Positions 4,080-55,832 of a stretch of 64,000 bases of DNA are shown one piece after another (positions within the stretch are counted from its first letter, which is position 1; every line of letters starts with the position of its first letter). Made by a program: the position numbers and the translations under genes. The DNA comes from Pseudoxanthomonas sp. (lineage in GTDB: Bacteria; Pseudomonadota; Gammaproteobacteria; Xanthomonadales; Xanthomonadaceae). The notes under the pieces were generated by a model. The model did no database searches and was not told the origin of the DNA. It saw only the letters and a program-made list of their open reading frames with translations. The stretch is taken from positions 1 to 64,000 of the forward strand of contig NZ_JANJUE010000061.1 of NCBI RefSeq assembly GCF_024710765.1, read 5' to 3'.

Positions 4080-4508
4080 TTAGAAAGTGACCTTCACCGA
4101 CGGCGCGCTGCGCTTCGCTTCACCGTGGTAGACGGCTTCGATGTTGTTGCCGTCGGGATCCAGCGCGAACGCGCCGTAGTAGCCCGGATGGTAGGCGCGT
4201 TCGCCGGGCGCGCCGTTGTCGCGGCCACCATGCGCCAGCGCGACGCGATGGAAGGCCTCCACCATCGCGCGATCCCGCGCCTGGAACGCCAGGTGGTGGC
4301 GGCCGGTGAGCTCGCCCTGCGCGGCCTCGCTGCTGGCGGTGGACACGAACAGCTCGTCGGCCCAGAAATAGTCTTCGCCGCTGCCGCTCATCGGAATCTC
4401 CAGCACATCGAAGACAGCCTGGTAGAAACGGCGGCTGGCATCCAGATCGCGCACCACCAGTTGCAGGTGATCGATCAGGCGCCCGCGGTGGAGTTCGTTG
4501 GTTTCCAT
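4080..4508 (-). CDS. VOC-family (glyoxalase-like) protein
   Basis: A 142-residue single-domain vicinal-oxygen-chelate protein. It begins with RLIDHLQLVVRDLDASRRFY, the typical first beta-alpha-beta unit with a metal-ligand His, then has ELTGRHHLAFQARDRAMVEA in the second unit and ends with the signature YGAFALDPDGNNIEAVYH, where the last Glu is the usual metal ligand. These proteins are metal-dependent lyases, dioxygenases or drug-binding proteins; the substrate is not predictable. GGGAG precedes the ATG at 4508. Confidence 0.85.
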   Translation of the reverse strand: METNELHRGRLIDHLQLVVRDLDASRRFYQAVFDVLEIPMSGSGEDYFWADELFVSTASSEAAQGELTGRHHLAFQARDRAMVEAFHRVALAHGGRDNGAPGERAYHPGYYGAFALDPDGNNIEAVYHGEAKRSAPSVKVTF

Positions 4509-4621
4509 GGAGGATCTCCCGTGGTGGCGTGGAGCCGTCTTATAGCATCGGCGGGCGGCGTGCCGCTTCACGATTTCTTCAAGCCGTTGCCGCGAAGTTT
4601 CAAGGCGGCGGGGAGATGGCG

Positions 4622-5010
4622 ATGCAGCGCGGACGGGTCCCGCAGGAAAGGCTGGCGCGGCTGCGCGTCCTGTGCCTGGAACTGCCGGCGGTATATGAAG
4701 AGGCGGCCTGGGCGGGAACGCGGTGGATGATCGGCAAGCGCAACTTCACCCACGCGGTGATGATCGAGCGTGGCCGGCCACCGCCTACGCGCGCGCGGCC
4801 GCCTCGCCGGGGCCGCTGGCGGTGGTGACGTCCCGGGTGCCGCGGGCCGATGGCGATGCGTCGCGCTTCCGCCAGCGCCCTTACTTCAAGCCGCCATGGT
4901 GGCCGGACATCGTCGGCATCGGCCGGGACGCGGACACCGATTGCGATCGGGTATCCATGCACGTGATCGCAAGCTATCGCCTGCTGGCACCGAAAGCGCT
5001 GTTGCGCTGA
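4622..5010 (+). pseudogene. Frameshifted YjbR/MmcQ (DUF419) gene
   Basis: The first frame (from ATG 4622, GGGAG 6 nt upstream) reads RLARLRVLCLELPAVYEEAA and WAGTRWMIGKRNFTHAVMIE, the usual start of a YjbR/MmcQ protein. Near 4775-4785 the similarity jumps one frame to ATAYARAAASPGPLAVVT, then PYFKPPWWPDIVGIG and SYRLLAPKALLR, the usual end of the family. Adding one G in CCACCGCCTACG would give the expected RPPAYARA junction and a protein of about 129 residues. Either a real loss-of-function mutation or a sequencing error. An intact relative lies at 28465-28878. Confidence 0.75.
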
Positions 5011-42622: not shown

Positions 42623-43195
42623 TCACCGCGCCGGATAGGGCCAGGCCGCGCGCGCCTGGCGCAGGGCATGGCCCAGCCAGGCCAACTGGTCGAGCATGGT
42701 GGAGGCGGCCTGCGCGCAGGCCGCCGCGTCGCGCGGCTGCCCGTCGGCGCCGAACCGATCCCACGCCATCGGAAACAATATCGAATTGCGCACCGTGCAG
42801 GCGTGCAGTCCGGAGAACACCTGGCGCAGTTGCTCCACCGCGCGCGAACCGCCACTGACGCCGCCATACGCGACGAACGCCACCGGCTTGGCCTGCCAAT
42901 GTTCCTGGACCGAATCGATCAGGAACTTCAGCGCCGCGGGATAGCCGTAATTGTACTCCGGCACCACCAGCAGGAAGGCATCGGCGCGCCAGATCCGCTG
43001 CTGCAGGTTCACCAGGTCGGGCGAGGGGGTCATCCCGTGCCGGTGCGGCAGATCCATCAGCGCCGGATCGACCACGTCCACGGTGTAGTCGCGGCGGCGG
43101 TCGATCTGGCCGCGGATCCAGTTGGCGACCACGTCGCAGAAGCGGCCTTCACGGTTGCTGCCATAGATCAGGGCCAGTTCGAGGGGAGGGGTCAT
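42623..43195 (-). CDS. NADPH-dependent FMN reductase, SoxR-box controlled
   Basis: A 190-residue flavodoxin-fold reductase. [20 protein letters not shown] is the FMN phosphate loop and [20 protein letters not shown] near residue 80 is the ring-contact signature; [20 protein letters not shown] near 108 is the second loop. Such enzymes reduce FMN or quinones with NADPH. It diverges from soxR, and its promoter contains a SoxR box. That suggests it is induced by redox-cycling agents, like the SoxR-linked oxidoreductases in other bacteria. No ribosome binding site is clear before the ATG at 43195. Confidence 0.9.
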
Positions 43196-43237
43196 GACGG
43201 AACAGGGACTTGCAGGGAGAGGCCGTCCAGGGTAAAA

Positions 43238-43255
43238 CCTCAATCAATATTGAGG
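43238..43255 (-). promoter_or_regulatory. SoxR box in the FMN reductase promoter
   Basis: CCTCAATCAATATTGAGG is an 18-bp site with perfect 7-bp arms (8 bp if the flanking A/T pair is counted), close to the known SoxR site CCTCAA-N6-TTGAGG. On the minus strand it sits in TTGACC-19 bp-TACCCT. The over-long 19-bp spacer is the MerR/SoxR class feature. It lies only 16 bp upstream of soxR, so autoregulation is possible. Confidence 0.85.
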
Positions 43256-43270
43256 TCAAGCGAGCGTGTC

Positions 43271-43753
43271 ATGTCCGCGCAAGCCAACCCGGCGATGGCA
43301 AGGAAAAAAAAGGCGAACGTCTGCATGGAACTGACCGTGGGCGAGGTGGCGGCGCGGGCCGGCGTGGCGGTGTCCACCCTGCATTTCTACGAGAGCAAGG
43401 GACTCATCCACAGTTGGCGCAATGCCGGCAACCAGCGCCGCTATCCGCGTGAAGTGCTGCGCCGGGTCGCGATCATCAAGGTGGCGCAGCGGACCGGGAT
43501 TCCGCTGGCCGAGATCCGTGACGCGCTGTCGTCGCTGCCGGAAGGGCGCACGCCCACCGCCGCGGACTGGCGCAAGCTGTCCGCGCGCTGGCAGGCGGAT
43601 CTGGACGACCGCATCGAACGCCTGACCCGCCTGCGCGATCACATGGACAGCTGCATCGGCTGTGGCTGCCTGTCGCTGAAGGTCTGTCCGCTGCGCAACC
43701 CGCTGGACGAACTGTCCGAGGAAGGCCCGGGACCCCGCCTGCTGGATCCCTGA
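43271..43753 (+). CDS. soxR: Redox-sensitive transcriptional activator SoxR
   Basis: A 160-residue MerR-family protein. The helix-turn-helix is [20 protein letters not shown] with [20 protein letters not shown] (residues 21-60), nearly identical in pattern to E. coli SoxR. The [2Fe-2S] cluster cysteines are Cys128, Cys131, Cys133 and Cys139 in [16 protein letters not shown] (CX2CXCX5C). Oxidation of the cluster by redox-cycling compounds or superoxide twists DNA and turns on target promoters. No soxS is seen, so as in pseudomonads it probably acts directly on effector genes (see 43238 and 53159). Confidence 0.96.
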
Positions 43754-46345: not shown

Positions 46346-47818
46346 TCAGCGCTGCACGAGCGTGGTATCGTTCCCGGCCCGCGGTGCGGGCTCGCCGATC
46401 TCGCGCTTGACCGTGGCCAGCGCCGGATCCACATCGGGTTCGCCCCAACCGCCGAGCGACTTGTACACCGCGACCACGCCGACGTTGACGCCGGCTTCGG
46501 CCTGCGCGAGCGCATCGTCGGCCGCCAGCTGCGTACGCTGCGCATCCAGCAGGGTGAGGAAGTCCGACGCACCGACCCGGTAACGGGCCTCGGCCAGTTC
46601 CGCGGCCCGGCGGGCGGCGGTGGCCTGCTCGTTCACGCGCAGCAACTGGGTCTGCCGCTTGGCATAGCCCAGCAGCGCGTTCTCGGTGTCTTCCAGCGCA
46701 CCCAGCACCGCCTTCTCGTACTCGGCCACGGCACCATCGTTCTGCGCCTGCACCGCACGCAGGCGCGCACGCACGCTGCCGAGATCGAACGCGGCCCAGC
46801 TGATCGACGGCGTCACCGACCAGGCCTTGTTGTCACCGTTGATCAGGCCGCTGAAGTCACCGGCGAGGAAGCCGACGAAGCCGCGGATGCTGACCCGCGG
46901 AAACAGGTCCGCGGTGGCGACGCCGACCCGCGCGGTGGCCGAGGCCAGGCGGCGTTCGGCGGCGCGCACGTCCGGACGTTGCCGCAGCAGCGTGCCGGTG
47001 TCGCCGATCGGCAGCACCTTCACCAGTGCCGGCGTTTCCCGTGGCGCCAGCAGCGCGTCGAGCGTGCCGGGCCGGCGTCCGGTCAGCACTTCGATGCGAT
47101 GGCGCGATTGCGCCTCGGCGGTTTCCAGCACCGGCAGGGTCGCCTCGATCGCCTTCATTCGCGCCAGGCTGCTCTGCACCTCCAGCTCGGTGCCGGCGCC
47201 GAGTTCCCAGCGCGACTCGGTCAGCCGCTGGGTCTCGCCCAGGTTGCCCAGGGTCTTGCGGGCCACGTCCAGGCGCTTCTGCGCGCCGCGCAGTTCGAAG
47301 TAGTTGCGCGCGACCTCCGCCGCCACGCTGACCTGCATGGCGGTCATGTCGTTGCGCTGTGCCTGCAGATCCGCGTGCGCGGCCTCGGCGGACCGGCGCA
47401 GGCGACCGAATAGATCCAGTTCCCAGGCGGCGTCGAAGCCGACGCTGTCGGTCTCGGTCTCCACCCGGCCCTGATCGGCGACCGGCTGCTTGCTGCGGGT
47501 CTGTTCGACGCCCAACTGCACGTGCGGGGCCAGATCCAGCCGGCGCTCGCTGAACACCGCGCGTGCTTCCTGCACCCGGGCCGCGGCGATCCACAGATCG
47601 GGATTGGCGGCCAGGGCGTCGGCGATCAGCTGATCGAGGGTGGCGTCTTCGAACTGCGACCACCAGTTGGCGACCGGGCGGGTGTCGCTGAACGCGGCTT
47701 CGCTGGCGCTGGGCAGTGTCGCCGGCGCCAGTTCGGGAGCGCGATAGTCGGGGCCGACCGTGGCGCAGGCGGCCAGCAGCGCCGAGGCGATGCCGACGAC
47801 GAGGGTACGGATCACCAT
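46346..47818 (-). CDS. RND efflux outer-membrane factor (OprM/OprN-type)
   Basis: A 490-residue lipoprotein (lipobox ASALLAAC, Cys18). ATVGPDYRAPEL is the typical NodT start. Two OEP repeats: about 60-250 (WWSQFEDATLDQLIADALAA, NPDLWIAAARVQEARAVFSE) and 280-470 (RPGTLDALLAPRETPALVKV, RQRPDVRAAERRLASATARV, NEQATAARRAAELAEARYRV). It forms a trimeric channel that links the RND pump to the outside. It is the last gene of the efflux operon and overlaps the SDR gene stop by 7 nt. Confidence 0.93.
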   Translation of the reverse strand: MVIRTLVVGIASALLAACATVGPDYRAPELAPATLPSASEAAFSDTRPVANWWSQFEDATLDQLIADALAANPDLWIAAARVQEARAVFSERRLDLAPHVQLGVEQTRSKQPVADQGRVETETDSVGFDAAWELDLFGRLRRSAEAAHADLQAQRNDMTAMQVSVAAEVARNYFELRGAQKRLDVARKTLGNLGETQRLTESRWELGAGTELEVQSSLARMKAIEATLPVLETAEAQSRHRIEVLTGRRPGTLDALLAPRETPALVKVLPIGDTGTLLRQRPDVRAAERRLASATARVGVATADLFPRVSIRGFVGFLAGDFSGLINGDNKAWSVTPSISWAAFDLGSVRARLRAVQAQNDGAVAEYEKAVLGALEDTENALLGYAKRQTQLLRVNEQATAARRAAELAEARYRVGASDFLTLLDAQRTQLAADDALAQAEAGVNVGVVAVYKSLGGWGEPDVDPALATVKREIGEPAPRAGNDTTLVQR

Positions 47819-48546
47819 GGCAGCACCTCCTCGCGATGGAAGAAACCGCCCTGCGGGCCGTTGTCGTCGATCAGTGCCAGGGCGACGCTGGTGCGCGCGC
47901 CATCGGCGATGTCCAGCTCGCCTTCGCCGGCATTCATGTCGGTCTTCACGTAGCCGGGATGGATGGTGTTGACCTTGATCCGGCTGTCGCGCAGTTCATA
48001 GGCCAGCTGCACCGTCCAGGCGTTCACCGCGCTCTTGGACACGTTGTAGGCGGGCACCTTGAAGTCGTAGATGGGCGAGGCGGGATCCGCGTTCAACGCG
48101 ACCGAGCCCAGGATGCTGGACACGTTGACGATGCGGCCGGCGTTGGACTTGTGCAGCAGCGGCAGGAACGCCTGGGTCACCGCGATCAGGCCGAACACGT
48201 TGGTGTCGAAGGTCGTGCGCCAGGTCGAAGCGGTCTGCTCGGACACCTTCTTGCCGGACTCGTCGACCAGGATGCCGGCGTTGTTGACCAGGATGTCCAG
48301 ACGGCCGTGGCGCGCCGCGACGGTGCTCACCGCCTCGGCGATGCTGGCATCGCTGGTGACGTCCAGCGCGATCGCTTCCACCGGCAGGCCATCGGCCTGC
48401 AACTTGAGCGCGGCCTCGACCGCGCGGTTGCGATCGCGTCCGGCCAGCAGCGTGTGCACGCCGGCCTCGGCCAGCTGGCGCACGGTCTGCAGGCCGATGC
48501 CGCGGGTGGCGCCGGTGACCAGCGCGATGCGGGATGTGTCTTGCAT
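47812..48546 (-). CDS. SDR-family oxidoreductase inside the RND operon
   Basis: A 244-residue classical short-chain dehydrogenase. ALVTGATRGIGLQTVRQLAE is the NADP loop, LDILVNNAGILVDE the NNAG motif, IVNVSSILG the catalytic Ser, and YNVSKSAVNAWTVQLAYELR holds the YxxxK pair. HPGYVKTDM follows, as in carbonyl reductases. It lies between the pump and outer-membrane genes (50 nt after the RND stop; 7-nt overlap with the next gene), so it is co-expressed and may modify the exported compound. Confidence 0.93.
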   Translation of the reverse strand: MQDTSRIALVTGATRGIGLQTVRQLAEAGVHTLLAGRDRNRAVEAALKLQADGLPVEAIALDVTSDASIAEAVSTVAARHGRLDILVNNAGILVDESGKKVSEQTASTWRTTFDTNVFGLIAVTQAFLPLLHKSNAGRIVNVSSILGSVALNADPASPIYDFKVPAYNVSKSAVNAWTVQLAYELRDSRIKVNTIHPGYVKTDMNAGEGELDIADGARTSVALALIDDNGPQGGFFHREEVLPW

Positions 48547-48596: not shown

Positions 48597-51500
48597 TCAG
48601 GCGTGGGCGTCACCGGCCGCGTGCGCCGGGGCGTGCGAGACCAACGGGCGATGCGCGAGCTTGCGCAGCGCCACGTAGAACACCGGGGTCAGGAACAGGC
48701 CGAACAGGGTCACGCCCAGCATGCCGGCGAACACGGTGATGCCGGTGACCGAGCGGACTTCCGCACCGGCGCCGGTCGACAGCACCAGCGGCACGGTGCC
48801 GGCGATGAACGCCACCGAGGTCATGATGATCGGGCGCAGGCGCAGGCGGCAGGCTTCCAGCGCCGACTCCACGATGCTCTTGCCCTGCAGTTCCAGTTCG
48901 CGGGCGAACTCGACGATCAGGATCGCGTTCTTGCACGCCAGGCCCATCAGCACCACCAGGCCGACCTGCACGAACACGTTGTTGTCGCCACCGGTCAACC
49001 AGACGCCGGCCAGCGCGGACAGCAGCGTCATCGGCACGATCAGGATCACCGCCAGCGGCAGGGTCCAGCTTTCGTACAGCGCGGCAAGCACCAGGAAGGC
49101 CAGCATGACCGCCAGCGGGAACACCACCAGCGCGGCCTTGCCCTGGGTGGCCTGCTGGTAGCTCAGGTCGCTCCAGTCGATGCCCATGCCGGTCGGCAGG
49201 ACCTTCTCGGCCAGTTCGGTGACCTTGGCCATCGCTTCGCCGGAAGAGAGCACGCGCGGGTCGGCTTCACCCAGCAGGTCGGCGGCCGGATAGCCGTTGA
49301 AGCGGATCACCGGATCCGGACCGTAGGTCTGCTTGATGTTGACCATGCTGCCGACCGGGACCATTTCGCCGTTGGCATTGCGGGTACGCAGGTTGGCGAT
49401 ATCCTCGACGCTGTCGCGGAACGGGCCGTCGGCCTGCGCGACCACCTGCCAGGTGCGGCCGAACATGTTGAAGTCGTTGACGTAGGCCGAACCCAGGTAG
49501 GTCTGCAGGGTGTCGAACAGCTCGGTCAGCGGCACGCCCTGGGCCTTGGCCTTGACGCGATCGACCTCGGCGTCCAGCTGCGGCACGTTGGCCTGGTAGC
49601 TGCTGATCGGGAAGCCCATGCCCGGCGTCTGCGACGCCGCGCCCTGGAACGCCTGCACCGCGTTCTGCAACTCGCCGTAACCCAGGCGGGTGCGGTCCTC
49701 GATGAACAGCGACCAGCCCGAACCGTTGCCCAGGCCCTGGATGGGCGGCGGCATGAGCGCGAAGGTGAAGCCTTCCTGGATGGAGGAGAACTTCTGGTTC
49801 AGCTCGGCGGTGATCTGCTCGGCGCTGTTCTTGCGCTCACCGAACGGCTTGAGGTTGAAGAACACCACGCCGCTGTTGGGCGTATTGGTGAACTGCAGCG
49901 GATTCAGGCCGGGGAAGGCGATTTCGTCCTGCACGCCTTCCACTTCCATCGCCATCTTGGCCATTTTCTTCAGCACCGCGTCGGTGCGTTCGATGGACGC
50001 GCCTTCCGGCATCTTCACGCCGGCGATGATGTACAGCTTGTCCTGCAGCGGAATGAAGCCCGCCGGCACCGCCTTGAACATCACGCCCGCGCCGATCAGC
50101 AGCACCACGTACACCGCGAACACCGCGCCGCGACGGCCCAGCGCACGCGAGACCGCGCCTTCATAGCGTTCGGAACTGCGCTTGAAGAACCGGTTGAACG
50201 GACGGAACAGCCAGCCGAACAGGCGGTCGATGATCCGCGCCGGGGCGTCCTTGGGTGCGCCGTGCGGCTTCAGCAGCTTGGCGGCCAGCGCCGGCGACAG
50301 GGTCAGCGAGTTGATCGCCGAGATCACGGTGGAGATGGCGATGGTGACCGCGAACTGCTTGTAGAACTGGCCGGTCACGCCGGTCAGGAACGCCATCGGC
50401 ACGAACACCGCGCACAGCACCAGCGCGATCGCGATGATCGGGCCGGACACTTCCTTCATCGCCAGGTGCGCCGCTTGCAGCGGCGTTGCGCCTTCCTCGA
50501 TATGGCGTTCGACGTTTTCCACCACCACGATGGCGTCGTCCACCACGATGCCGATGGCCAGCACCAGGCCGAACAGGGTAAGCGTGTTGATCGAATAGCC
50601 CAGCAGGTAGAGCACGGCGAAGGTGCCCACCACCGATACCGGCACCGCCAGCAGCGGGATGATCGAGGCGCGCCAGGTCTGCAGGAACAGGATCACCACC
50701 AACACCACCAGCAGGGTGGCTTCCAGCAGCGTGGTGATCACCGACTTGATCGAATCGCGCACGAACACCGTGGTGTCGTACACCGAGGTGATCTCCACGC
50801 CCGGCGGCAGCTTCTTGCGGATCTCGGCCATCTTCTCGACGACCGAATCGCGGATGTTGAGCGCGTTGGCGCCCGGGGCCTGGAAGATGCCCAGCGCGGC
50901 GGCGTTCATGCCATTCAGGCGCGCGCGCAGGGTGTAGTCGCCCGCGGCCAGTTCAATCCGGGCCACGTCCGACAGGCGCACGATTTCGCCTTCGTTGCCG
51001 CTCTTGAGCACGATGTCGCCGAATTCCTCGGGAGTTTCGAGGCGACCCTTGGCATTGATCGGCAGCAGGAAGTCGCTGCCGTTGGGCATCGGCTCGGCAC
51101 CGAGCTGGCCGGCCGAGACCTGCACGTTCTGCTCGCGCACCGAACGCAGCACGTCGCTGGCGGTCAGGCCGCGCGAGGCGACCTTGTCCGGATCCAGCCA
51201 GATGCGCATGGCGTAGTCGCCGCCACCGAAGGCCTGGGCGTCGCCGACGCCGGCGATGCGCGCCATTTCGTCCTTCACGTGCAGGCGCATGTAGTTGCGC
51301 AGGTACAGCGAGTCGTACTTGCCGTCCTTGGACACGAGGTGGACGACCATCAGGAACACCGGCGACTGCTTCTGGGTGGTCACGCCCTGGCGGCGGACAT
51401 CCTCGGGCAGGCGTGCCTGCGCCTGGGCGACGCGGTTCTGCACGCGCACCGCGGCCTCGTCCGGGTCGGTGCCCGGCTTGAAGGTCACGGTCAGCTGCAG

Positions 51501-51767
51501 CACGCCGTCGGAGCCGGCGACGGACTTGATGTACATCATGTCCTCGACGCCGTTGATGGCTTCTTCCAGCGGGGTGGCGACGGTTTCGGCGATGACCTTG
51601 GGATTGGCGCCGGGATAGACCGTGCGCACGACCACCGAGGGCGGCACCACTTCGGGGTACTCGCCGATCGGCAGCATCGGGATCGAGATCAGGCCGGCGG
51701 CGAAGATCACGATCGACAACACCGCGGCGAAGATCGGCCGGTCGATGAAGAATCTTGAGAAGTCCAT
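48597..51767 (-). CDS. RND efflux transporter, MexF/OqxB-like (HAE1)
   Basis: A 1056-residue inner-membrane proton antiporter with 12 helices and two periplasmic loops. The start DFSRFFIDRPIFAAVLSIVI with EYPEVVPPSVVVRTVYPGAN is MexF-like rather than AcrB-like. The proton-relay Asp pair is in GIVVDDAIVVVENVERHIEE near residue 405, and the RND motif GASIERTDAVLKKMAKM and FALMPPPIQGLGNGSG lie in the second loop. The pump trimer expels hydrophobic drugs and redox-active compounds. AAGGAA precedes the ATG at 51767. Confidence 0.95.
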   Translation of the reverse strand: MDFSRFFIDRPIFAAVLSIVIFAAGLISIPMLPIGEYPEVVPPSVVVRTVYPGANPKVIAETVATPLEEAINGVEDMMYIKSVAGSDGVLQLTVTFKPGTDPDEAAVRVQNRVAQAQARLPEDVRRQGVTTQKQSPVFLMVVHLVSKDGKYDSLYLRNYMRLHVKDEMARIAGVGDAQAFGGGDYAMRIWLDPDKVASRGLTASDVLRSVREQNVQVSAGQLGAEPMPNGSDFLLPINAKGRLETPEEFGDIVLKSGNEGEIVRLSDVARIELAAGDYTLRARLNGMNAAALGIFQAPGANALNIRDSVVEKMAEIRKKLPPGVEITSVYDTTVFVRDSIKSVITTLLEATLLVVLVVILFLQTWRASIIPLLAVPVSVVGTFAVLYLLGYSINTLTLFGLVLAIGIVVDDAIVVVENVERHIEEGATPLQAAHLAMKEVSGPIIAIALVLCAVFVPMAFLTGVTGQFYKQFAVTIAISTVISAINSLTLSPALAAKLLKPHGAPKDAPARIIDRLFGWLFRPFNRFFKRSSERYEGAVSRALGRRGAVFAVYVVLLIGAGVMFKAVPAGFIPLQDKLYIIAGVKMPEGASIERTDAVLKKMAKMAMEVEGVQDEIAFPGLNPLQFTNTPNSGVVFFNLKPFGERKNSAEQITAELNQKFSSIQEGFTFALMPPPIQGLGNGSGWSLFIEDRTRLGYGELQNAVQAFQGAASQTPGMGFPISSYQANVPQLDAEVDRVKAKAQGVPLTELFDTLQTYLGSAYVNDFNMFGRTWQVVAQADGPFRDSVEDIANLRTRNANGEMVPVGSMVNIKQTYGPDPVIRFNGYPAADLLGEADPRVLSSGEAMAKVTELAEKVLPTGMGIDWSDLSYQQATQGKAALVVFPLAVMLAFLVLAALYESWTLPLAVILIVPMTLLSALAGVWLTGGDNNVFVQVGLVVLMGLACKNAILIVEFARELELQGKSIVESALEACRLRLRPIIMTSVAFIAGTVPLVLSTGAGAEVRSVTGITVFAGMLGVTLFGLFLTPVFYVALRKLAHRPLVSHAPAHAAGDAHA

Positions 51768-51888: not shown

Positions 51889-53109
51889 TCACTTCATCGC
51901 AACGGCGTCGGGCGCGGGCGCCTTGTCTTCAGGCTTGGCATCCATCGCGACCACCTTGGCGTTGACCGGCATGCCCGGGAAGAACACCTTCTGCACGCCA
52001 CTGATGATCACGCGGTCACCGGCGACCAGGCCCTGTTCGACGATCCGCAGGCCCTGGACAACCCGGCCCAGCTTCACGTCGCGGCGCTGGGCTTTGCCTT
52101 CCTTGTCGACCACGTAGACGTAGCGGCGATCCTGGTCGGTGAGCACGGCCTTGTCGTCGACCAGCGCGGCCTTGAACTCGCCGCTGCCCAGCAGGCGCAC
52201 GCGCGCATACAGGCCGGGCGTGAACAGGCGGTCCTTGTTGTCCAGCACCGCGCGGGCGCGGATGGTGCCGGTGCTGCGATCGACCTGGTTGTCCAGGAAG
52301 TCGACGGTGCCGGCATGCGGGAAGCCCTGATCGTCGGCCAGCGCGACCTGCACCGGTACCTTGCCGTCACGCTCGCTCGGGCGTTCGCCCTTGCGCGCCA
52401 TCTCGGCGTAGCGCAGGAACGCGCGCTCGTCGGCATCGAAGTGCACGTGCACCTTGTCCAGCGACACCAGCGTGGTCAGCACGCTGGCGCTGTCGCCGGC
52501 GGTGACCAGGTTGCCGGCGGTCACCAGCGCACGGCCGGCGCGGCCGTCGATCGGGGCGCGCACCTGGGTCCATTCCAGGTTGAGGCGGGCCGAGTCCACC
52601 GCGGCCTGGGCGGCGGCGACATTTGCCTGCGCCTGGGCGGCGGCGGCGCGACGCTGCTCGTATTCCTCGGTGGAGATGGCCTGCAGTTCGGACAGCTTGC
52701 GCGCGCGCTCGGCTTCGCTGCGACCGAGTTCTGCCTGGGTGCGGGCACGTGCCAGCTCGGCCTGCGCGCGTGCCAGATCGGCGCGGTAGCTGCGCGCGTC
52801 GATGGTGAAGAGGACATCGCCCTTCTTCACTTCCTGGCCTTCGGTGTAGCTGACGCGATCGATGTAACCGGACACGCGCGGACGCAGCTCGACGTTTTCG
52901 ATCGCCTCGATGCGGCCACTGAATTCGTCCCATTGGCTGACCGGCTTGATCAGCACCGGGGCGACGCTGACCGAAGGCGGCGGCGGCGCGCCGGCTTCGC
53001 TGGCCTGGCCGCCGCTGCAGCCGGCCAGGATGGCCAGCGACAGCGCGCTGGCCGCGCCCAGGGCAAGGAATCGTCGCGTACGCGGAGCGATGTCGATGTA
53101 CTTGTTCAT
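51889..53109 (-). CDS. RND efflux periplasmic adaptor (MexE-like membrane fusion protein)
   Basis: A 406-residue lipoprotein (lipobox SLAILAGC, Cys near residue 31). After a short linker, PVLIKPVSQWDEFSGRIEAI and VELRPRVSGYIDRVSYTEGQ with VKKGDVLFTIDARSYRADLA form the lipoyl domain, a long coiled-coil hairpin (RAQAELARARTQAELGRSEA to AAAQAAVDSARLNL) follows, then the beta-barrel and membrane-proximal domains. It joins pump and outer-membrane channel. First gene of the operon, under the SoxR-box promoter. ATG 53109 is set by the lipoprotein signal. Confidence 0.94.
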   Translation of the reverse strand: MNKYIDIAPRTRRFLALGAASALSLAILAGCSGGQASEAGAPPPPSVSVAPVLIKPVSQWDEFSGRIEAIENVELRPRVSGYIDRVSYTEGQEVKKGDVLFTIDARSYRADLARAQAELARARTQAELGRSEAERARKLSELQAISTEEYEQRRAAAAQAQANVAAAQAAVDSARLNLEWTQVRAPIDGRAGRALVTAGNLVTAGDSASVLTTLVSLDKVHVHFDADERAFLRYAEMARKGERPSERDGKVPVQVALADDQGFPHAGTVDFLDNQVDRSTGTIRARAVLDNKDRLFTPGLYARVRLLGSGEFKAALVDDKAVLTDQDRRYVYVVDKEGKAQRRDVKLGRVVQGLRIVEQGLVAGDRVIISGVQKVFFPGMPVNAKVVAMDAKPEDKAPAPDAVAMK

Positions 53110-53158
53110 GGAAGTCTCGTGGGTGGTGGGGAAGGGACAACGGGCGTGAAGCCTAAGA

Positions 53159-53176
53159 CCTGAACTTAAGTTGAGG
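53159..53176 (-). promoter_or_regulatory. SoxR box in the RND efflux operon promoter
   Basis: CCTGAACTTAAGTTGAGG differs from a perfect CCTCAA-N6-TTGAGG site by one base. On the minus strand it lies in TTGACC (53174-53179), a 19-bp spacer and TAGGCT (53149-53154), the same architecture as the FMN reductase promoter. It is 50 nt upstream of the adaptor start and abuts the stop codon of the preceding SDR gene. Confidence 0.85.
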
Positions 53177-53950
53177 TCAAGCGGGGGCGGCATCGCCCCA
53201 GCGGGAAGCGGGAAAATCCGAAAACAGGGTCCGGGTCGGCGCTTCCGCCAGCTCCTTGGAGTAGGAGACGATCGGGAGCGGCTTGCCGTGACGGCTCAGC
53301 AGCGATACCGCGTTGCGTCCGACCGCCAGTGCGTTGGGCCATTCGGCGCAGGCATTTACGGCGTTGGCCGGCGTGCAGATGGGTTTGTCCACCGACAGCA
53401 ACTGCACCCGCACGCCCATCGCGTGCGCTTCCTCGTGCAGCACCTGCGCCATCATCCGCATGGTCGCCCCGGTGACCGAGGCGTGCCCGTAGCCGGACCA
53501 GCCGCGTTCGGCGAACGGACCGCCGACCAGGATGTAGTGCGTGGTGCCGCCGGACTCGGCCAGGAGCGGCAACAGATGCCGGGCCGCCGCCAGGTGCGGA
53601 ATCACGTCCATCTCCAGCTTGTGGCGCAGCACGTCGCTGGACTTGTCCAGCAGGCGTCCCGCTTCCAGCGGACTGGTCAGGCTGGCGAACACCGCGCGCA
53701 GCGGGCGGCCACGCGCGCGGATGTCCCGCGCCAGCCGCGCCGCATCGTCATCGCTGAAGATGCAGCCGCTGTGCATCAGCTCCAGTCCCGGCTCGTCGCT
53801 GAAACGCTCGGCCAGCGCCCGCATGCGCGGTCCTTCGCGCCCGATCGCCAGCACCGGGCTTCCGACTTCGAGCAGCGCGCCGACCACGCCGGCACCGACC
53901 GTGCCGGCGGCGCCCAGCACCAGCGCCTGCGGATGCGCGGCGGCTTTCAC
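53177..53950 (-). CDS. SDR-type NAD(P)-dependent oxidoreductase, atypical
   Basis: A 257-residue protein. ALVLGAAGTVGAGVVGALLE is a Rossmann loop; LRHKLEMDVIPHLAAARHLL and THYILVGGPFAERGWSGYGH follow the SDR layout with Tyr in GYGHASVTG, but the usual YxxxK Lys is not present at +4, so catalysis is uncertain. It ends against the SoxR box of the efflux operon and begins with a 4-nt overlap (ATGA) with the upstream gene. The downstream promoter suggests it is transcribed separately from the pump genes. Confidence 0.75.
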   Translation of the reverse strand: MKAAAHPQALVLGAAGTVGAGVVGALLEVGSPVLAIGREGPRMRALAERFSDEPGLELMHSGCIFSDDDAARLARDIRARGRPLRAVFASLTSPLEAGRLLDKSSDVLRHKLEMDVIPHLAAARHLLPLLAESGGTTHYILVGGPFAERGWSGYGHASVTGATMRMMAQVLHEEAHAMGVRVQLLSVDKPICTPANAVNACAEWPNALAVGRNAVSLLSRHGKPLPIVSYSKELAEAPTRTLFSDFPASRWGDAAPA

Positions 53951-54779: not shown

Positions 54780-55832
54780 ATGAGCCACGATCTGAACGAC
54801 ACGCTGATCTTCGTCAAGGTGGTCGAGCAGGGCAGCTTCATCGCCGCCGCCAAGACGCTCGGCCTGCCGAAAACCACGGTCAGCCGCAAGGTGCAGGAAC
54901 TGGAAACGCGCCTGGGCGCGCAGTTGCTGCACCGGACCACCCGCAAGCTCGGCCTCACCGAGGCGGGCAACATCTATTACGAACATTGCCAGCGAATCGC
55001 GCGCGAATTGAGCGAGGCCGAGAGCGCGGTCAATCAGTTGCAGGGCGGTCCTCGCGGCTGGCTGCGCTTCACCACGCCGTATTCGATCGGCATCGACAAG
55101 ATTGCGCCGCTGCTCGGCGAATTCCACGCGCAGTACCCGGAGATCCGGGTGGAGATGCTGCTGAGCAACGAGCCGCTGGATCTGATCGGCGGTGAGATCG
55201 ATGTCGCCCTGCGGTTGGGCAACCTGCCCGATTCCAACCTGGTCGCACGCCGGCTGGGCGTGCTGCGCACCCAGGTCTACGCGAGCAAGAGCTACCTGGC
55301 CCGCTACGGCGAACCACTGGGGCCGGATGATCTGCAGCATCACCGCGCGCTGGCGATGCCCAAGCACCGGCGGGGGGGCGGCAGCTTCTGCTGGAGCCTC
55401 AACGATGGCAACCAGGACAAGGACTTCGCGATCAATCCGATCCTGATCGCCAACGATCCGGCCGCGCTGAAAGGCGCGCTGCTGTGCGGCGAGGGCTTGA
55501 TGGTGGCGGCGGACGTGATGGTCAGGCCGTATCTGGAACAGGGCTATGTGCAGCGCGTGCTGGCCGGCTGGACCGGACCGGAGTTCGAGTTCAACGCGGT
55601 GTTCCCGCGTGGCCGCATGATGTCGCCGAAAGTGCGTGCGTTCGTCGACTTCCTGGTCGAACGGTTGAAGTTCGACATGGATTACATGATGGAACACTGC
55701 CCGGTCTACCTGAAGCAGCAGGCCGAGGCCTGCGCGAGCGCGCTGGCCGAATCGGTGCGCCGCGAGACCGAGGCGGAGAAAGCGGCGGAAATCGCTGACG
55801 GCCGCCGTGTGCTGGCCGAAGTGGTGAACTGA
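54780..55832 (+). CDS. LysR-family transcriptional regulator
   Basis: A 350-residue regulator. The N-terminal helix-turn-helix reads LNDTLIFVKVVEQGSFIAAA, KTLGLPKTTVSRKVQELETR and LGAQLLHRTTRKLGLTEAG. The effector domain follows (LRFTTPYSIGIDKIAPLLGE, VALRLGNLPDSNLVARRLGV). It is about 40 residues longer than usual owing to a C-terminal tail rich in Ala and Glu. The target may be the divergent 54426-53177 operon or a distant gene. GGAG lies 8 nt before the ATG. Confidence 0.93.
   Translation: MSHDLNDTLIFVKVVEQGSFIAAAKTLGLPKTTVSRKVQELETRLGAQLLHRTTRKLGLTEAGNIYYEHCQRIARELSEAESAVNQLQGGPRGWLRFTTPYSIGIDKIAPLLGEFHAQYPEIRVEMLLSNEPLDLIGGEIDVALRLGNLPDSNLVARRLGVLRTQVYASKSYLARYGEPLGPDDLQHHRALAMPKHRRGGGSFCWSLNDGNQDKDFAINPILIANDPAALKGALLCGEGLMVAADVMVRPYLEQGYVQRVLAGWTGPEFEFNAVFPRGRMMSPKVRAFVDFLVERLKFDMDYMMEHCPVYLKQQAEACASALAESVRRETEAEKAAEIADGRRVLAEVVN

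Follow-up and report, generated by a model that had tools for sequence, protein, structure and literature searches.

The closest known counterpart of the operon analysed here is smeU1VWU2X of Stenotrophomonas maltophilia. It encodes the SmeVWX pump, which contributes to the multidrug resistance of this species. The published layout is smeU1VWU2X together with the regulator gene smeRv, and superoxide stress raises expression of the operon through SoxR (PMC12189255). According to the discussion of PMC11356428, which cites a 2018 paper among others, SmeRv and AzoR act directly and oxidised SoxR raises smeRv. One review describes the smeVWX operon as silent in its default state and switched on by oxidative stress (PMC8300704). 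Another ascribes the induction of SmeVWX by menadione to thiol reactivity (PMC11200565).

SoxR is also known at other promoters of S. maltophilia. Its binding to the mfsA promoter was demonstrated by gel shift; there the SoxR box lies between the -35 and -10 elements, which are separated by a 19-bp spacer, and this one box serves both soxR and the divergent target (PMC4411124). A further SoxR box lies near the sodA1 promoter (PMC6479884). In Pseudomonas aeruginosa, mexGHI-opmD is an RND pump activated by SoxR (PMC8859910). An earlier note on the present DNA had pointed to this precedent, and rightly so. MexGHI-OpmD belongs to another RND subclass, and its operon is not known to have a leading SDR gene.

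Because SoxR-dependent induction of smeU1VWU2X has been published, the control of a MexEF-class pump by SoxR is by itself no novelty. No statement about a box between smeU1 and smeV was found in the literature searched, a body of text that most subscription papers fall outside. What is proposed here is therefore direct activation of V, W, U2 and X by SoxR, bypassing U1.

The window is the whole stretch of Pseudoxanthomonas DNA that was analysed, 64,000 nucleotides long. The pump genes and the promoter under study are arranged in it as follows.

54780 to 55832, plus strand: LysR-type regulator, divergent from U1 and the counterpart of SmeRv (profile matches and comparison with S. maltophilia D457)
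53177 to 53950, minus strand: U1, SDR-like, 257 amino acids (adh_short E 3.8e-5, 23.7 bits, below the Pfam cut-off of 26.6)
53150 to 53180, minus strand: SoxR-type promoter, -35 TTGACC at 53180-53175, 19-bp spacer, -10 TAGGCT at 53155-53150
51889 to 53109, minus strand: V, RND periplasmic adaptor of the MexE/OqxA/SmeV class (OqxA model 563.5 bits, MexE model 440.8)
48597 to 51767, minus strand: W, RND permease of the OqxB/MexF/SmeW class (OqxB model 1878.1 bits; start ATG at 51767, searches run with one extra codon)
47812 to 48546, minus strand: U2, SDR oxidoreductase (adh_short 177.6 bits)
46346 to 47818, minus strand: X, outer membrane factor (TIGR01845 333.9 bits)

This order of divergent LysR gene, SDR U1 (a weak match to that family), adaptor, RND permease, SDR U2 and outer membrane factor is the order of smeU1VWU2X. 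The same order is found in S. maltophilia D457, where identity to the window's proteins is 70% for LysR, 48% for U1, 75% for V, 81% for W, 69% for U2 and 63% for X. By gene order and similarity, the operon is smeU1-V-W-U2-X-like, and its LysR gene is divergent. The gene spacing is compatible with a single transcript from U1 to X.

The earlier note called the pump MexF-like. It does belong to the MexEF class, but by model score it is closest to OqxAB within that class. The oqxAB models score best among the named ones for both V and W, though below both NCBIfam cut-offs (563.5 against 835 bits for OqxA, 1878.1 against 2200 for OqxB). The MexE cut-off is not reached either (440.8 against 714), and mexEF-oprN represents the same broad class only. 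Against solved structures the permease gives 1784 and 1778 bits for the best two, and 862 for MexB. For oqxAB, no U1, U2 or SoxR box is known. The nearest named genome found is that of Pseudoxanthomonas beigongshangi, whose adaptor is 98% identical.

The site of SoxR type within TTGACC-19 bp-TAGGCT that the earlier note reported upstream of the pump genes is indeed present. The string CCTGAACTTAAGTTGAGG occupies 53159-53176 of the plus strand. Read on the minus strand from 53176 to 53159 it is an 18-bp SoxR box with the dyad CCTCAACTTAAGTTCAGG; the CCTCAA-N6-TTGAGG dyad lies between a -35 and a -10 element with a 19-bp spacer, as in mfsA-soxR (PMC4411124). The box matches 15 of the 16 defined positions of TTGACCTCAA-N6-TTGAGG. 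From TAGGCT to the ATG of the adaptor gene at 53109 there are 40 nt.

The earlier note had placed this promoter upstream of the operon. It precedes the adaptor gene, but it lies between U1 and V. The stop codon of U1, TGA at 53179-53177, forms bases 2-4 of the -35 hexamer; since U1 ends within the -35, the promoter lies inside the operon and not ahead of it. In D457 the SoxR box is likewise at the U1-V junction, with the U1 stop within the -35. This was counted as support, as D457 belongs to a species with published SoxR-mediated induction of the operon (PMC12189255).

A soxR gene and a second site of the same type are found about 10 kb from the pump operon.

43271 to 43753, plus strand: soxR (TIGR01950 232.1 bits, cut-off 116.9; cysteine motif; match to the solved SoxR 2zhg over 148 residues; start set at 43271, further ATGs at 43295 and 43325)
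43229 to 43259, minus strand: second SoxR-type promoter at the junction of soxR and the FMN reductase gene, TTGACC at 43259-43254, 19 bp, TACCCT at 43234-43229
42623 to 43195, minus strand: NADPH-dependent FMN reductase, probable SoxR target (FMN_red 121.2 bits)

The four cysteines of the [2Fe-2S] cluster align with those of 2zhg. In the second site, the 18-bp box at 43255-43238 stands upstream of the FMN reductase gene. In S. maltophilia soxR lies instead beside mfsA (PMC4411124), which encodes an MFS pump and not an RND pump.

Both sites begin with the same string and share the 19-bp spacing, as the earlier note had observed. GCTTGACCT occurs twice in the window, just at these two sites, where 0.32 occurrences are expected; 3 of 100 shuffles reached two. 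When up to two mismatches to TTGACCTNAANNTNANNTNAGG are allowed, the window has three matches where 0.01 are expected: the two sites, one of which is read on both strands.

A genome-wide motif search, which the earlier note had suggested as a check, gave six matches at five places with up to two mismatches. At three mismatches the search returns background, with 16 matches in all against 26 for a backward control. Outside the window there are three places: one on contig C314, and two (C371:2220-2241 and C92:33423-33444) with a start codon 36 and 38 nt past the box, belonging to an MFS transporter and an arylamine N-acetyltransferase. Since the places are few and two of these three precede start codons, the motif is not scattered at random. 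The MFS transporter, the arylamine N-acetyltransferase and the FMN reductase look like a small regulon for redox-active drugs, and the box before an MFS gene recalls mfsA of S. maltophilia.

A similar palindrome, at C389:8386-8407 of the window's genome, stands directly before a MerR-family gene whose product scores 64 bits, under the SoxR cut-off. It is possibly the operator of that gene itself.

Conservation was followed in 113 genomes, namely 111 of the 266 family genomes that have an adaptor match, plus G003 and G006. G003 is 89% complete, and the soxR status of G003 and G006 comes from a single search. The sample holds all 35 genomes of the window's genus (code g1) and all 31 of code g42 with an adaptor match, and 47 sampled from other codes; G272, G010 and G410, g1 genomes in which no adaptor matched, stand outside it. 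Genus here means a grouping code, and g42 is read as Stenotrophomonas from its match to D457. To count, a site had to match at 13 of 16 positions or better and lie no more than 1000 bp upstream of the adaptor match. A set of 79 named loci, of which 14 have a site of at least 13/16, overlaps the examined genomes and was kept out of the counts.

Of the genomes with SoxR, 50 of 53 carry the U1-V site: all 25 in the window's genus and 25 of the 28 Stenotrophomonas-like ones. Among SoxR-negative genomes it is present in 1 of 10 and 0 of 3, together 1 of 13. Fisher p values for site against SoxR, which ignore relatedness, are 1.4e-7 for the window's genus, 0.0044 for g42 and 1.1e-9 for both. Tree-corrected pairs in the two genera number 2 for, 0 against and 2 without difference, few events that give a sign test p of 0.5. 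On all 92 rows of the tree, which covers codes g1, g42, g24, g20 and g30 and omits the 21 genomes of other codes, the pairs are 2 for, 0 against and 5 without difference. No significance is claimed, since the Fisher values take no account of relatedness and the tree test rests on too few events. The co-occurrence of site and SoxR is striking but not statistically established, and relatedness inflates the contrast.

G005, the sister of the window's clade, has neither soxR nor the site, in keeping with this pattern. Other genomes depart from it. In G011 there is no SoxR over the cut-off; the full palindrome is kept, which counts against direct control by SoxR, though the -35 is changed to TCGACC. 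So do three SoxR-positive Stenotrophomonas-like genomes that lack the site and also lack U1. The site was found in none of the 47 sampled genomes of other codes, 29 of them SoxR-positive, which again counts against a direct role. SoxR control of the pump as a trait of the whole family is rejected on the same count. Some g24 genomes are Pseudoxanthomonas by name (P. suwonensis DSM 17175, P. kaohsiungensis, P. sp. J31), so that not all of the named Pseudoxanthomonas have the site. A MexEF-class pump appears to belong to the SoxR regulon in certain genera only.

A Stenotrophomonas-like subclade of six genomes (loci L133, L138, L139, L143, L166 and L201) has neither U1 nor a SoxR site. In the five that were measured, some 510-580 bp separate V from the LysR match.

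In the window's genus, soxR and the adaptor gene are 7.9-10.3 kb apart on one contig in 19 of the 25 SoxR-positive genomes, the window's included. In G020 they are on two contigs, and in G004, G007, G009, G015 and G017 the two genes are either distant from each other or carried by different contigs. Two Stenotrophomonas-like genomes (G221 and G335) each encode a second SoxR over the cut-off; its gene shares a contig with the smeV-like gene, at distances of 13 and 15 kb.

Within the site, conservation exceeds that of its surroundings. For the window's genus, an alignment of 26 sites gives 1.61 bits per column in the 22 bp from the -35 onwards, and 0.48 and 0.60 in the flanks. For 25 sites of the Stenotrophomonas-like genus the value is 1.72, with 1.24 and 0.69 in the flanks. 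The A2 and T6 of the -10 are kept across the 26 sites of the window's genus. In these, the U1 stop lies inside the -35 in 6, before the box in 17, and U1 reads into the box in 3. In the Stenotrophomonas-like genus it lies inside the -35 in all 25, as in D457. The shared register of stop and -35 suggests one inherited feature rather than two gains; the tree itself is blind to gain versus loss.

A palindrome that arose by chance or is a relic, and serves no function today, would fit the lineages without the site and the six mobile-looking pump loci in which the box is shortened. This reading is scarcely credible here, given the 0.01 matches expected in the window, conservation above the flanks and constant spacing in the aligned sites. 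In 100 loci (L088-L187) searched at 13/16 or better, 64 matches represent 38 distinct sites, 26 of them matched on the other strand too, and reversed sequences gave none; at 12/16 the reversed sequences gave 11. A chance palindrome is rejected on the window expectation, the genome search and these reversed-sequence controls.

Another MerR-family regulator could own the box in place of SoxR. The window's genome has five MerR-family matches, only one of them over the SoxR cut-off, and G011 retains the palindrome without SoxR. Still, the half-sites are those of the SoxR boxes of S. maltophilia mfsA and of E. coli (PMC4411124), the same box flanks soxR itself, and the site follows SoxR in the two genera, with the caveat of relatedness. 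Ownership by a different regulator is accordingly regarded as highly improbable.

The site is very probably an internal, SoxR-activated promoter of the smeU1VWU2X-type operon. Basal and LysR-controlled transcription would probably start in front of U1. Redox-cycling compounds would oxidise the [2Fe-2S] cluster of SoxR, and SoxR on the box would then remodel the over-long 19-bp spacer. RNA polymerase could thereby initiate just upstream of V, so that V, W, U2 and X would be made and U1 omitted. Binding by SoxR, activation and the set of co-transcribed genes are here inferred from established SoxR biochemistry.

The published account differs in that SmeRv and AzoR are the direct regulators and SoxR stands upstream of smeRv; the box points instead to SoxR acting directly, downstream of U1. 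On an indirect model, oxidised SoxR raises SmeRv, which activates the whole operon ahead of U1, and the box between U1 and V is minor. The discussion of PMC11356428 states such a route with reference to the 2018 paper and others, and this counts against a direct role. It leaves the position-specific conservation of the box unexplained. Moreover, the smeRv-smeU1 interval of D457 has no box of at least 12/16 on either strand, and the sole site in the 11-kb D457 locus is at U1-V. A box ahead of U1 or of the LysR gene was rejected for the window on the same threshold. That the indirect route operates with a minor box is therefore considered unlikely; direct and indirect control by SoxR can hold together.

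A conserved direct SoxR promoter at smeU1/smeV would offer a simple, testable mechanism of induction. A switch common to the operons of Pseudoxanthomonas and S. maltophilia could explain activation of the pump by redox-active chemicals. Transcription from a promoter between smeU1 and smeV would be missed if smeU1 alone were measured.

The earlier note had further proposed that a different RND subclass has come under SoxR control. The box, its 19-bp spacer, the nearby soxR, the conserved position and the co-occurrence lend this support at the level of sequence; its novelty does not stand, as the S. maltophilia counterpart is published. A broader reading is held with some preference, and less firmly than the internal promoter itself. 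SoxR itself would drive the superoxide response of SmeVWX in Stenotrophomonas and Pseudoxanthomonas, acting directly at an internal promoter; in many of these species the -35 of this promoter holds the smeU1 stop. The pump and SmeU2 would be made without SmeU1, and two transcripts would answer two signals, a LysR ligand or SoxR. Coupling of SoxR-family regulators to pumps of the MexEF-OqxAB class would have arisen more than once; in Pseudomonas, Achromobacter and Rudaea this would also have involved soxR-like genes that are divergent and have another operator.

Such divergent genes can be found in five of the 79 named loci, some of which are too short upstream to tell. In L061, L072, L073, L075 and L076 (about 4300-5000 of each), a SoxR-family gene is divergent from a MexE/OqxA-like adaptor gene. 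The hosts are a Rhodanobacteraceae bacterium, Rudaea, two Pseudomonas (one P. chlororaphis) and Achromobacter. The products score 169-178 bits, over the cut-off. A variant operator of the type TTGACTT..AGTT..CTTTAACTT, with 19-bp spacing, occurs in these five alone among the loci compared. The divergent genes may form a SoxR subfamily dedicated to the pump, and the pairings, together with the mobile-looking and Variovorax loci described below, suggest that SoxR and MexEF-class pumps were joined more than once.

Two further candidates were rejected. The pumps of plasmids pALIDE201 and pMCBF6 (2 of 356 matched plasmid records) have no box of at least 12/16 in the stretches examined. For LexABC of Lysobacter antibioticus, its paper puts LexB near MexI and describes LexR as not similar to SoxR.

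Six copies of a mobile-looking pump locus (L041 and L043-L047, about 4760-4800) carry a shortened SoxR box. They come from S. maltophilia D457, as a second pump locus, the Tistrella plasmid pTM3, Pusillimonas, Lampropedia, Achromobacter and Bordetella. In Variovorax WDL1 (L035), an intact box precedes a related pump and a second box precedes a gene that, judged by eye, is superoxide dismutase-like (3877 and about 3528).
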